Below, piece by piece: positions 6,311 to 42,776 of a stretch of DNA of 64,000 bases. A program made the translations under genes and the position numbers. How positions within the stretch are numbered: position 1 is the stretch's first letter; every line of letters starts with the position of its first letter. The DNA lies in the NCBI GenBank assembly GCA_016873165.1, contig VGXV01000014.1, forward strand, positions 1 through 64,000. Direction: 5' to 3'. This DNA is from Planctomycetota bacterium (GTDB lineage: Bacteria; Planctomycetota; Brocadiia; Brocadiales; Brocadiaceae). The notes under the pieces were generated by a model. The model was not told the origin of the DNA and searched no databases. It was given only the letters and a program-made list of their open reading frames with translations.

Positions 6311-6982
6311 ATGGGTAAATTAAAATTTATAAAAAAAAAATACAGAGTTGTTTTGCTTATTTTCCTGATTCTGAGCGGCTGTTTCAGCACGCAAAAACCT
6401 CCGGTCACCATTGCTCCCTCGTGCAACAAGAGGATTTATGAAATATCGAAGCAGCCGTTGACCATGGGTATCTATATCGATCCTGTCCTGAGAAACCACG
6501 AGCAGAAAGAAAAGCTGTGGCATCAAATCATTGGAATTCAATACTTTGTTTTTCCCGTTGGAATGCCTCTTGCGAAAAAAATCGAGGAAACATGTCAGTC
6601 TTTATTTAATAATGTGGTTTTCCTGAATAATCCGGAGGATAAGGCATTATTAGAAGGGAAATCACTGGATGGAATTCTGGAATTTCGTTTAAAAAATTCG
6701 GATATTCACCTGCGAATCGAGGAAGCGGTGTTGCATGCGATAGGGGAACATTATCTTTCTCTCTATGTTATGCTCTATGACACGAAACAAAATAAATTAT
6801 GGGAAGATGAAGTTTTTGCAGAGGGGAAAGGATTGGATGTGGTTACATCGCAAGTCGAATGGGAATGGTGGATCACTTCAGGGCCGAAATTTGGGCCTGC
6901 CGTTGATATGGCGATTGAAAATATTACCTATAACTTGGCGCAAAAACTTACTGTGGTAAAAGAAATTCTTGGTCAAAAATAG
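6311..6982 (+). CDS. Conserved-looking lipoprotein of unknown function
   Basis: A 223-residue protein with a lipoprotein signal: basic 'KKKYR', hydrophobic 'VVLLIFLIL', then the lipobox LSGC with Cys at about residue 24. The mature part has an alternating beta pattern and a 'VEWEWWITSGPKFGPAVDMA' segment that I do not recognise. It was the last gene before the integrated element: its stop lies about 50 bp from the left direct repeat at 7030. The role is unknown; an outer-membrane or periplasmic location is inferred from the lipobox. Confidence 0.65.
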   Translation: MGKLKFIKKKYRVVLLIFLILSGCFSTQKPPVTIAPSCNKRIYEISKQPLTMGIYIDPVLRNHEQKEKLWHQIIGIQYFVFPVGMPLAKKIEETCQSLFNNVVFLNNPEDKALLEGKSLDGILEFRLKNSDIHLRIEEAVLHAIGEHYLSLYVMLYDTKQNKLWEDEVFAEGKGLDVVTSQVEWEWWITSGPKFGPAVDMAIENITYNLAQKLTVVKEILGQK

Positions 6983-7016
6983 GAACATTCGTATGATAAA
7001 AACCAATCGTGCCAAA

Positions 7017-7043
7017 CGGGAATATTCCCGAAATACTATTGCA
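7017..7043. other. Left attachment-site candidate (attL)
   Basis: GAAATACTATTGCA at 7030-7043 is repeated exactly at 18150-18163. It abuts a perfect 14-bp palindrome CGGGAATATTCCCG (7017-7030). It lies 112 bp outside the 3' end of the integrase gene, the usual place for an att core. Confidence 0.6.
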
Positions 7044-7083
7044 ATATTTACTATTTTCTCCGCCTATTACCATGCAACCTTTG

Positions 7084-31322: not shown

Positions 31323-33131
31323 ATGGAACATGAATATCCTGATTTGAACGTTATCATTGCCACTGATTGCGGCAGTACCACTACAAAAGCCATTTTGATT
31401 GAGAAAAAGGACGGAGTTTACCGGCAAACATTCCGCGGGGAATCGCCGACAACTGTGGAAGCCCCTTTTGAAGATGTCACCCGTGGGGTGTTGAACGCAT
31501 TTGCGGAAGTGGAGGAACTTTCCGGCAGAAAGATTTTAGACGGCGAGAAAATTATCACTCCTGCCAGAGGAAATAAAGGGGTTGATATTTATGTTTCCAC
31601 CAGCAGCGCAGGCGGAGGGTTGCAGATGATGGTTGCGGGAGCGGTCAAGGCAATGACCGCAGAGAGTGCGCAAAGAGCGGCTTTGGGAGCTGGTGCGATT
31701 GTCATGGACGTTATTGCCTCAAATGACAAACGGCTTCCGCATGAAAAGATTGACCGAATACGACACCTCCGGCCTGATATGATACTCCTTTCCGGAGGCA
31801 CGGATGGGGGTACGGTTACCCACGTAGTGGAACTGGCAGAATATATTGCTGCCGCAAATCCGAAACCACGGCTCGGCATGTCATTTCAGCTTCCCGTAGT
31901 ATATGCAGGCAACAAGGATGTCCGTCAGAAAATTGCCGATATACTGGAGGGAAAAACTTCGTTGCACGTTACCGATAACTTACGCCCTACACTTGAACGG
32001 GAAAATCTTTTTCCTTCGCGTCAGGAAATCCAGAAACTCTTTCTTGAGCATGTTATGGCACAGGCTCCCGGTTATAAGAAACTTATGACCTGGACAGGCG
32101 CTCCGATTATGCCCACACCGGCGGCAGTCGGTCTCATTATGCAAACGATAGCGAAAAAAGATACTATTAACGTTGTCGGAGTCGATATTGGCGGCGCGAC
32201 AACAGACGTTTTTTCCGTTTATGGCGAAATTTTTAACCGTACGGTGAGCGCAAATCTGGGGATGAGCTACAGTGTTTCTAACGTTTTGGCAGAGGCGGGT
32301 CTTCAGAATATTTTACGATGGATGCCATTTGATATTGATGAATCCGATCTGAGAAACAGGATTAAGAATAAAATGATTCGCCCTACTACCATTCCGCAAA
32401 CTTTGGAAGAACTAAAGATAGAACAGGCATTGTCACGCGAAGCGCTCAGACTTTCTTTCGATCAGCACAAATCACTGGCAGTCGGGTTAAAAGGGGTACA
32501 GAAGGAGAGAGATATTTCCGAAGCCTTAAAACAGGATGTCTCAGAAGAAACAATTATAGATATGCTGAAATTAGACCTCCTGGTAGGCAGCGGAGGGGTT
32601 TTGTCTCACGCGCCGCGAAGGGCGCAATCGATGCTTATGATGATAGATGCCTTCCAGCCTGAAGGGATAACGAGGGTTGCGGTTGACAGCATTTTCATGA
32701 TGCCGCACCTGGGGGTGCTTTCTTCTGTGAATGAAAAAGCGGCAACGGAGGTATTTATGAAAGATTGCCTGATTCATCTTGGAACATGTGTTTCTTTAGC
32801 AAAAAACCGTCCGGGGAAAGCAGGAGAACAATGTCTGACATATAAAATAACCCTGCCCGGGGGGAAAATAAAGGAAGATTCGGTTCCATTCGGGGAATTG
32901 TGCGTGATACCCCTTGGCATTGACGAGACAGCGGAAATGGAAATATTCCCTGCAAAGAATTATGATGCCGGTAAGGGGAAAGGAAAATCTTTCACGGCGA
33001 AGGTTTTTGGGGGAGTTGTCGGTGTTGTAATTGATACCCGCGGCAGACCAATTGCCTTAGCGAAGGACAATGCCTCGCGGGTGGAACAATTAAAGAAGTG
33101 GACGCAAGCTATCGACGCGTATCCGATATAA
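31323..33131 (+). CDS. MutL/GlmL-like ASKHA-family ATPase
   Basis: 602 residues. N-terminal 'VIIATDCGSTTTKAILIEKK' is the phosphate-1 motif of actin-like ATPases. 'DMILLSGGTDGGTVTHVVE' and 'VVGVDIGGATTDVFSVYGEI' are the hallmarks of the MutL/GlmL family, named for a protein beside glutamate mutase and ornithine aminomutase that is thought to help reactivate B12-dependent enzymes. No aminomutase gene is in the window, and the next gene (33213) is its only clear partner. Family firm; client enzyme unknown. Confidence 0.85.
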   Translation: MEHEYPDLNVIIATDCGSTTTKAILIEKKDGVYRQTFRGESPTTVEAPFEDVTRGVLNAFAEVEELSGRKILDGEKIITPARGNKGVDIYVSTSSAGGGLQMMVAGAVKAMTAESAQRAALGAGAIVMDVIASNDKRLPHEKIDRIRHLRPDMILLSGGTDGGTVTHVVELAEYIAAANPKPRLGMSFQLPVVYAGNKDVRQKIADILEGKTSLHVTDNLRPTLERENLFPSRQEIQKLFLEHVMAQAPGYKKLMTWTGAPIMPTPAAVGLIMQTIAKKDTINVVGVDIGGATTDVFSVYGEIFNRTVSANLGMSYSVSNVLAEAGLQNILRWMPFDIDESDLRNRIKNKMIRPTTIPQTLEELKIEQALSREALRLSFDQHKSLAVGLKGVQKERDISEALKQDVSEETIIDMLKLDLLVGSGGVLSHAPRRAQSMLMMIDAFQPEGITRVAVDSIFMMPHLGVLSSVNEKAATEVFMKDCLIHLGTCVSLAKNRPGKAGEQCLTYKITLPGGKIKEDSVPFGELCVIPLGIDETAEMEIFPAKNYDAGKGKGKSFTAKVFGGVVGVVIDTRGRPIALAKDNASRVEQLKKWTQAIDAYPI

Positions 33132-40397: not shown

Positions 40398-40485
40398 TCG
40401 CTCCCAAACTCCGGTTTGGGAGCGTAAATGGACGAGAAACTGAGTTTCTCATTAAAATTGTGTACCCAAACTGGAGTTTGGGTAC
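40398..40485. repeat. Triple-palindrome intergenic repeat (CCCAAA family)
   Basis: Three hairpins in a row: 40398-40423 (CGCTCCCAAACTC arm), 40434-40450 (GAGAAACTGAGTTTCTC) and 40462-40485 (GTACCCAAACTG arm). A relative is at 57501-57532 (CTCGTTCCCAAA arm). Likely a REP-like dispersed element. Confidence 0.6.
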
Positions 40486-40673
40486 AAGCAGGAATGCAAC
40501 GTTTTGAGCATATGTATCGTACATTCCACAGTGAAGAAAAATTCTGCTAAATTATTTTTTTTTGCTCCGATAATAGTAAAAGTTAATCCTGCAGCTGATT
40601 CGTTTAATAAGTATAACAGAATTTCTGCAATGATATGAAGACAAAAATGTTTTACGAAAATTTAAATAAATAT

Positions 40674-40701
40674 TTGACATTTTTTTTGTATGTGATATAT
40701 T
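40674..40701 (+). promoter_or_regulatory. Sigma-70-type promoter for riboswitch and prepilin genes
   Basis: TTGACA (40674-40679), 16-nt spacer, TATATT (40696-40701), about 20 bp before the riboswitch. Confidence 0.7.
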
Positions 40702-40720: not shown

Positions 40721-40806
40721 TTTGAAAAGGGCAAACCAATCGTGAGGTTGGGACGCAAAGCCATGGGTCTTCAAAGCTTTGAAGATCGCCAGGTTGCCAA
40801 ATTGGG
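40721..40806 (+). ncRNA. c-di-GMP-I riboswitch (GEMM aptamer)
   Basis: Contains the conserved strings of the GEMM-I class in order: AGGGCAAACC (40728 on), a GNGA-like closing loop between AACC and GGTT, GGACGCAAAGCC (40751-40762), a palindromic P3 arm (TCTTCAAAGCTTTGAAGA) and AGGTTGCC (40791 on) that closes P1. Known GEMM-I RNAs bind cyclic di-GMP and often control pilus or motility genes. The next genes are prepilin-like. Not a gene for a protein. Confidence 0.9.
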
Positions 40807-40999
40807 CTGTATGCGCTTTTATTAGAAATACAGGGATTTTCTAGTCATTTATCAGAGAAATTAGCTTTGCTTTATCCAAAAGCCATTAAGAAGTTACTTA
40901 GGTAATTCTGGCTTTTATCGAATGTAAAGCTTAAAGTTTACATGACTTATGGAAAATCATTGGAAAATTTCTACAAAGTGCTCCTAGCGAATAAAATAT

Positions 41000-41044
41000 A
41001 AAGACCCAAGCCTTTGCGTTATATGGCTTTGGGTCTTTTTTTTT
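41000..41044 (+). terminator. Terminator / expression platform of the riboswitch
   Basis: Stem AAAGACCCAAGCC with GGCTTTGGGTCTTT followed by a run of T's. Its 5' arm and loop (41001-41018) can also pair with aptamer bases 40754-40771 (16 of 18 positions), giving a plausible switch between two structures. Confidence 0.8.
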
Positions 41045-41195
41045 GGGGATAAAGGAGGTTAAAAATAAATTGAGATATGGGCGCAAGTATTTTTTAACAC
41101 TAAAAAAGGGAGGAATAAATTATTAGGTTTTAGAAGTGATGGGATGCACTGTGTGTGGATGTATTACGTAACGTTTTTTTAATAGGAGATTAAAA
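41045..41195 (+). promoter_or_regulatory. Prepilin leader with purine-rich boxes
   Basis: Box A AAAGGAGG (41051-41058) and box B GGGAGGAATAAATTATT (41109-41125) precede the true ribosome site (AGGAG, about 41185). Short frames occur, including 41140-41172 (MGCTVCGCIT). Confidence 0.45.
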
Positions 41196-41831
41196 ATGTT
41201 AAATTTTAAAAAATGGAGGACCGAGGGTTTTACCCTGATTGAGTTGCTGGTAGTAATTGCCATTATCGGTATTCTCGCCGGTATTTTGTTGCCTGTATTG
41301 GGCAAAGCGCGTGAGTCGGCACGTAAGACGCAATGCGCATCAAATTTGAAACAGATCGGGTTGGCGCTGAACATGTTTGCCAATGATCAGGATGAGGCAT
41401 TTCCTACCGCAGGTGCTACTGGTATGGAATCGTTGGGACAGTTATACGACAAATATATTTCAGACAGGAAGATTTTTCGTTGCCCAAGCGATGATGATGT
41501 AACGGAGACAAATAACTTAGCTTTAACTGCTGCAACTACAATTACAACTGCGAATACATCGTTTACCACGGCCAGATGTAGTTATGGTTACGATGATAAC
41601 CATACGTCCGCAAATGATCCCGGTGTAGCGTTGGCTGCAGATGCAAAGGGAACCTCCACAACTGGGCTTTCAAGTAATCATGATGAAACAGGTCAAAATG
41701 TGCTTTACCTTGATGGTCACGTGGAATGGAAAGGCACGACAACGTGTGGATATTATAATGGCTCATCATATGATGACATTTACGCAGATGTTTCTGGCGT
41801 AACAGGAACAGATACATATATAGCGCAGTAA
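41196..41831 (+). CDS. Prepilin-like protein (planctomycete pseudopilin type), first copy
   Basis: 211 residues. Short basic leader, then '[20 protein letters not shown]' with the Gly/Phe prepilin peptidase site and Glu at +5, '[20 protein letters not shown]' and the C-terminal '[17 protein letters not shown]' (H-x(n)-DG motif). This family is greatly expanded in planctomycetes and relatives, and probably forms type II secretion or type IV pilus-like fibres. Controlled by a c-di-GMP riboswitch and terminator. Close paralogue at 42147. Confidence 0.9.
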
Positions 41832-42146: not shown

Positions 42147-42776
42147 ATGTGCAAAGGAATAAAATGGGGGATTTCTGGTTTTACGCTAATAGAATTATTG
42201 GTAGTAATCGCGATCATTGGCATTCTTGTATCCTTTCTCTTGCCAGTGTTGGGAAAGGCACGAGAATCCGCACGCAGAACACATTGTGCTTCAAATTTGA
42301 AACATATCGGCCTGTCGCTCAGGATGTATGCCAATGATCAGGACGATGCGCTTCCCACCGGAGGAAGCACGGGAATGGAATCGCTTGGAATGTTATATGA
42401 TACGTATATAAGCGACAGAAAAATTTTCCGTTGTCCAAGCGATAGCGGTGTTAGTGCAGCAAACAACATGGACTTGACGGCTGCTCCGGACATTTTTACG
42501 ACAAATGCATCATTTACTATTTCCCGATGCAGCTATGGATATGATGATACCCATACATTAAAAGATAGCTCCGGGGTAGTACTGGCCGCAGATGCAAAGG
42601 GAACCCCCACCGGTTCTCTTTCAGATAATCATAATGAATGGGGGCAAAATGTGCTTTATCTGGACGGTCATGTAGAGTGGAAGGGCACTGCAACCTGCGG
42701 ATATTACAATGGCTCAACGTATGATGATATTTACTCGGGTACGGGAAACGGCACGGATACCTACATAGCACAATGA
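42147..42776 (+). CDS. Prepilin-like protein, second copy
   Basis: 209 residues from ATG 42147 (GAGG site upstream; the longer frame begins inside the foldback repeat). Same architecture as the 41196 protein: '[20 protein letters not shown]', '[20 protein letters not shown]', '[17 protein letters not shown]' and the shared ending 'GTDTYIAQ'. The two are clearly recent paralogues. A foldback element and terminator separate them, so the second copy has no riboswitch of its own. Confidence 0.9.

Follow-up and report, generated by a model that had tools for sequence, protein, structure and literature searches.

A putative c-di-GMP-I OFF switch in the leader of anammox prepilin genes, with a terminator arm predicted to compete for aptamer helix P3

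The leader of a prepilin gene pair in a Candidatus Kuenenia species, an anammox planctomycete of the order Brocadiales, is very probably a c-di-GMP-I riboswitch that acts as a transcriptional OFF switch. It was found in a stretch of 64,000 nucleotides, referred to here as the window, in which aptamer bases 40754-40771 (CGCAAAGCCATGGGTCTT) can pair with terminator bases 41001-41018 (AAGACCCAAGCCTTTGCG) at 16 of 18 positions. This complementarity had been claimed in an earlier note on the same DNA and was confirmed, as none of 300 dinucleotide shuffles of the downstream stretch reached 16 matches (the best ungapped 18-mer gave 15). The same arrangement recurs in leaders across several Brocadiales genera. 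The order of the alternative folds is predicted by folding of the growing transcript, and we infer from these results the identity of the ligand, the dependence on it and the sign of regulation in the window leader. The reading in which c-di-GMP would turn the prepilin genes off was well supported by the comparison between leaders together with the folding predictions.

Leader anatomy and predicted folding along the transcript

The features of the leader are collected in Table 1. The promoter was the best in the region with 11 of 12 matches, judged by consensus match only, and it predicts an RNA starting shortly 5' of the aptamer. The c-di-GMP aptamer proposed in the earlier note was recovered with both Rfam models, RF03167 at 70 bits in the window and RF01051 at 73 bits against a cut-off of 35 in a whole-genome covariance model search. 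RF03167 (c-di-GMP-I-GGC) was the best-scoring label in the window, with a score above the model cut-off, and was dropped: its consensus has a G after CGC, and the window has an A at 40757. Because of this A the aptamer was assigned to the canonical c-di-GMP-I class. The ligand-contact residues of RF01051 are present in the alignment as G at 40730 and A at 40757, which we take to be equivalent to G20 and A47 of Vc2, the residues of c-di-GMP binders, and the natural ligand of the aptamer is presumably c-di-GMP. With G at position 20 and A at position 47 by this equivalence, it is highly improbable that the OFF switch answers instead to another natural cyclic dinucleotide such as 3',3'-cGAMP. Some GEMM-I aptamers do bind cGAMP (PMC9262584).

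Table 1. Coordinates of the leader features and of the genes that follow, in window positions
Feature	Position	Strand	Details
Sigma-70-like promoter	40674..40701	+	TTGACA, 16 nt, TATATT; TG ahead of the second hexamer
c-di-GMP-I aptamer	40721..40802	+	P1, P2 with GUGA loop, P3; Rfam matches
Aptamer strand predicted to form the antiterminator	40752..40771	+	Core GACGCAAAGCC and P3 5' strand AUGGGUCUU; folding, complementarity
Self-folding spacer	40803..40996	+	Own hairpin structure; folding, z -2.9
Decoy arm	41001..41020	+	Terminator 5' arm and loop, complementary to the aptamer strand
Intrinsic terminator	41000..41042	+	Hairpin 41000-41039; tract of nine T, 41034-41042
DUF1559 prepilin gene	41196..41831	+	N-terminal methylation motif, 211 aa; predicted regulated gene
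Second DUF1559 prepilin gene	42147..42776	+	Same kind, 73% identical; ORF listed from 42057, likely start ATG 42147

Partition-function folding was carried out length by length at successive transcript ends. The aptamer helices P2 and P3 were formed until about 41016, with P3 mostly at 0.8-0.9. At 41018-41030 the predicted antiterminator, pairing 40752-40770 with 41002-41020, reached 0.99-1.0 and P3 fell to about 0.1. From 41038 the terminator took over (0.95-0.97, with 0.97 at 41042) and P3 was restored. The two exclusive folds described in the earlier note, aptamer plus terminator or a long-range antiterminator, therefore both appear in the model, in this order. Terminator and aptamer are both present in the full-length fold and have no bases in common, and the terminator is strong by itself (-18.7 kcal/mol, z -4.2, folding of 40990-41045). 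The antiterminator was still at only 0.11 at 41012, where the arm stops short of the core, and extension of the pairing into the core is therefore predicted to tip the balance in the window leader.

The folding energies also constrain how a ligand could act. Without ligand the antiterminator was favoured by about 11-13 kcal/mol at 41020-41030, with the arm kept unpaired as the reference, so the ligand must act kinetically by holding P3 and not at equilibrium. Since the terminator prevails in the complete leader even when ligand is absent, the antiterminator must persist through a short decision time. Self-folding of the spacer would bring the aptamer and the terminator arm close together, and it exceeded that of shuffled sequences in 14 of the 19 leaders tested.

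We propose that the aptamer would fold first and that the spacer would then fold on itself. The emerging 5' arm of the terminator would capture the 5' strand of P3, and in the window leader also the ligand-contacting core, and the antiterminator thus formed would destroy the aptamer. The terminator would then come too late and the prepilin genes would be transcribed. If c-di-GMP were already bound, P3 would be locked and the arm would stay free to pair with its own 3' arm, forming the terminator and stopping prepilin transcription.

Two features near the leader were also recorded. Between the terminator and the prepilin start (41050-41130) lies AAAGGAGG, and after it a frame of about 17 codons that begins with TTG, possibly a leader peptide or chance, and a similar AAAGGAGG is also found 3' of the terminator in leader L002. 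Just 5' of the promoter (40399-40491) are perfect palindromes. The CCCAAACTSSRGTTTGGG motif occurs at nine genome sites, some of them paired, and looks like a dispersed repeat.

Related leaders in Brocadiales

The window genome has seven RF01051 matches. Six of these loci carry a type A aptamer, and downstream of each is a terminator with a 5' arm that matches (A)GACCCAAGG exactly or almost exactly. The terminator pattern AGACCCAW...TKGGTYTTTT was found at five distinct sites in the 4.05 Mb genome, all just 3' of c-di-GMP aptamers, and at none in the reversed control of that genome. Across 33 genomes of the family it occurred in four genomes only, where every match adjoins an aptamer, and the reversed control of the 33 genomes again gave none. 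A scan of named genomes with the P3 string located leaders in Candidatus Kuenenia hertensis. The same P3 string also occurs in Firmicutes and other bacteria, where a crude pattern test gave no such terminator.

In total 32 leader records were collected from Kuenenia, Scalindua, Anammoxibacter and other Brocadiaceae. One distance among them (L212, 271) is an artefact in which the terminator of a second tandem copy was assigned to the first aptamer, so about 30 leaders is a fair number. Lack of the complementarity in related leaders, which the earlier note had named as evidence against its reading, was not what we observed, as it is present in about 30. A predicted antiterminator above 0.5 was obtained in 29 of 32 leaders as compared to 8 of 256 with shuffled arms. 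Two emphases of the earlier note did not hold up in this comparison. The distance of 230 nt, described there as unusually long, is ordinary among relatives, in which aptamer and terminator are about 50-300 nt apart, and the spacer folds on itself. Reuse of the core, also considered unusual, gives way to capture of the P3 5' strand, and not of GACGCAAAG, as the general mechanism.

The pairing between TGGGTCTT in the P3 5' strand and AAGACCCA in the terminator arm is nearly invariant. The general pairing element is UGGGUCUU of P3, with the extension into the GACGCAAAG core a lineage-specific addition. Three Kuenenia species share this extension in their prepilin leader, with the terminator loop TTTGCRTTA conserved among them and the spacer drifting. 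Arms containing GCGT were considered as a general contact to the GACGC core and set aside, as inspection by eye showed them in only a handful of groups, not enough for such a claim.

Covariation in the type A pairing was weak because eight base pairs are nearly invariant: three pairs had changed on both sides (eight cells), a level reached by 57 of 500 shuffles. Suggestive single cases include the second pair, which changed from C-G to U-A in L074 and L243, and the usual A.A mismatch, which was repaired on one side in L006 and L190 and on the other in L107 and L243. The weak covariation, along with the many paralogous leaders with similar arms, would also be expected if whole leader units had been duplicated, leaving the arms alike, the terminator a plain attenuator and the pairing idle. 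This explanation is improbable, as arm complementarity is kept between leaders with unrelated spacers and terminator loops, the core-contacting loop is kept in three species, the A.A mismatch was repaired on opposite sides in L006 and L107, and shuffling the arm abolishes the predicted switching. Tandem complete riboswitch-terminator units, two per leader and each with its own decoy arm, were observed in the G000 genome at C28 16884-17422 (L002/L003), and further tandem units in G019 (C5, C17 and C38) and at G034:C132.

A second kind of leader, type B (AAAGTAAAGGGTCTT...AAGACAGCCTTACTGCC), has a different anatomy: the 3' strand of the aptamer itself serves as the terminator's 5' arm. Because this strand has both roles, ligand should prevent termination (ON). 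In total 66 such leaders were classified, and folding showed the two states to be exclusive. With so many ON-type leaders in the same order, the window leader might itself be an ON switch in which c-di-GMP prevents termination, as type B anatomy predicts and as is known for Geobacter pilM. In the window, however, aptamer and terminator are made of different bases and both form in the full-length fold, and as the antiterminator alone excludes the aptamer, ligand can only favour termination. An ON switch in the window is therefore very unlikely, and the OFF reading is preferred.

In about 9-13 further type B leaders the terminator is separate, and its arm is a repeat of the aptamer 3' strand. 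Their anatomy points to OFF logic, since aptamer and terminator coexist. In these leaders the pairing of the decoy with the P3 5' strand of its own leader is weaker than that of the native strand, and a clear antiterminator was predicted in only about 3 of 9. This makes OFF logic in these type B leaders, and with it part of the pilin association below, less certain. On these same two results we rejected the idea of a clean compensatory swap between type A and type B decoys.

Genomes of genus g3 (Candidatus Brocadia), G006 and G004 among them, contain up to 56 c-di-GMP-I matches per genome (E <= 0.001). The riboswitch regulon of this genus is unusually large, and most of the leaders examined were of the ON type, in which the terminator contains the aptamer 3' strand; long P3 insertions were frequent. 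A locus upstream of an N-acetylmuramoyl-alanine amidase gene (L007, G000:C28 about 32000-32116) initially scored as a short, weak aptamer. Its classification as a broken aptamer was dropped when the 3' strand AGCCCTGCTACCG was located about 90 nt further on in a terminator arm, and it is probably an ON leader of type B in which P3 has a long insertion.

Genes downstream of the leaders

Pilin-like genes follow several type A leaders besides the one in the window: DUF1559-type prepilins in L072, L159 and L211, a GspH-type pilin in L058 and a pilin with the methylation motif in the Scalindua leader L222. Other type A leaders lie ahead of an HTH and AAA ATPase pair, a PAS histidine kinase, an HDOD protein and exported proteins without assigned function. 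Pilin genes were found after 13 of 42 separate-terminator leaders, in several genera, as compared to 0 of 69 ON-type leaders. By class, pilin motifs were present in 6 of 29 type A, 7 of 13 separate-terminator type B and 0 of 69 ON leaders (one-sided Fisher 4.5e-4 for type A and 4.5e-7 for separate-terminator type B, from sequences that are not phylogenetically independent). The two kinds of leader thus sort with gene function as the OFF reading predicts. The prediction in the earlier note that c-di-GMP switches the prepilin off fits the recurrence of such leaders upstream of pilin genes.

The close relatives of the window prepilin, which are 60-75% identical, have a separate-terminator leader in seven genera. 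Of these, Kuenenia, G024 and G014 have a type A leader at the orthologue, and the four other genera have a type B leader. No aptamer was found upstream of the Brocadia orthologues of the window prepilin.

In two Kuenenia species a type A leader with its decoy terminator has no same-strand gene downstream (L005 1501-1690 and L191 about 6870-7075). The neighbours are a divergent murJ-like gene and a convergent gene that by eye looks like a formylglycine-generating-enzyme-type one, and because the latter is convergent, readthrough would be antisense to it.

Comparison with characterised switches and meaning for anammox bacteria

The characterised OFF switch most relevant here is Cd1 of the Clostridioides difficile flagellar operon, in which aptamer and terminator coexist and compete with a transient antiterminator (PMC9262584). 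The window leader resembles Cd1 in its GEMM-I aptamer, its probable transcriptional OFF logic, a predicted antiterminator that would destroy ligand binding and its motility-type genes. As in Cd1, its terminator is compatible with the folded aptamer in the full-length fold, and its predicted antiterminator (near 1.0 at 41018-41030) takes aptamer bases and excludes the ligand. The two differ in the strand that is captured. The switching strand of Cd1 has as its partner the aptamer-stabilising strand A, which itself pairs with the 5' aptamer strand (PMC9262584). The window terminator arm would instead capture the 5' strand of P3 together with the core, and in Brocadiales such capture is predicted across 50-300 nt with a folded spacer. 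Pairing with strand A is a detail of Cd1 and not a general feature of OFF switches.

The pilM cGAMP riboswitch of Geobacter metallireducens also combines a GEMM-I type aptamer with transcriptional control of pilus genes. It is an ON switch with an aptamer strand that is part of the terminator (PMC9262584), which the Brocadia type B leaders resemble and the window leader does not. Vc2, a translational OFF switch (PMC9262584), and Vc1 (PMC4744006), both of Vibrio cholerae, have the same aptamer class and different expression platforms. The window leader is thus very probably of a known kind, a Cd1-like transcriptional OFF riboswitch, and its platform, in which a terminator arm would compete for P3 over a wide range of distances, is a new variant. 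A literature search in a collection with few subscription papers returned none on c-di-GMP riboswitches in anammox bacteria or planctomycetes.

These leaders provide c-di-GMP-I riboswitches with a well-defined, predicted OFF platform, based on competition of the terminator arm for P3 across 50-300 nt. Paralogues of one design differ in spacer length and offer a natural series for the question of whether the distance determines how long ligand can be sensed. More tentatively, and with somewhat less than even confidence, we suggest that anammox bacteria have a genome-wide c-di-GMP RNA regulon with two opposite wirings of one aptamer, ON for secreted and envelope genes and decoy-arm OFF for pilin genes. 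If this is true, ON could have evolved into OFF by a simple route, the gain of a decoy copy of one strand. Anammox bacteria, which are without pure cultures, are important in nitrogen removal and form biofilm granules as they grow. That pilin genes follow some leaders but none of the ON type suggests that these bacteria make wide use of riboswitches to choose between pili and matrix.
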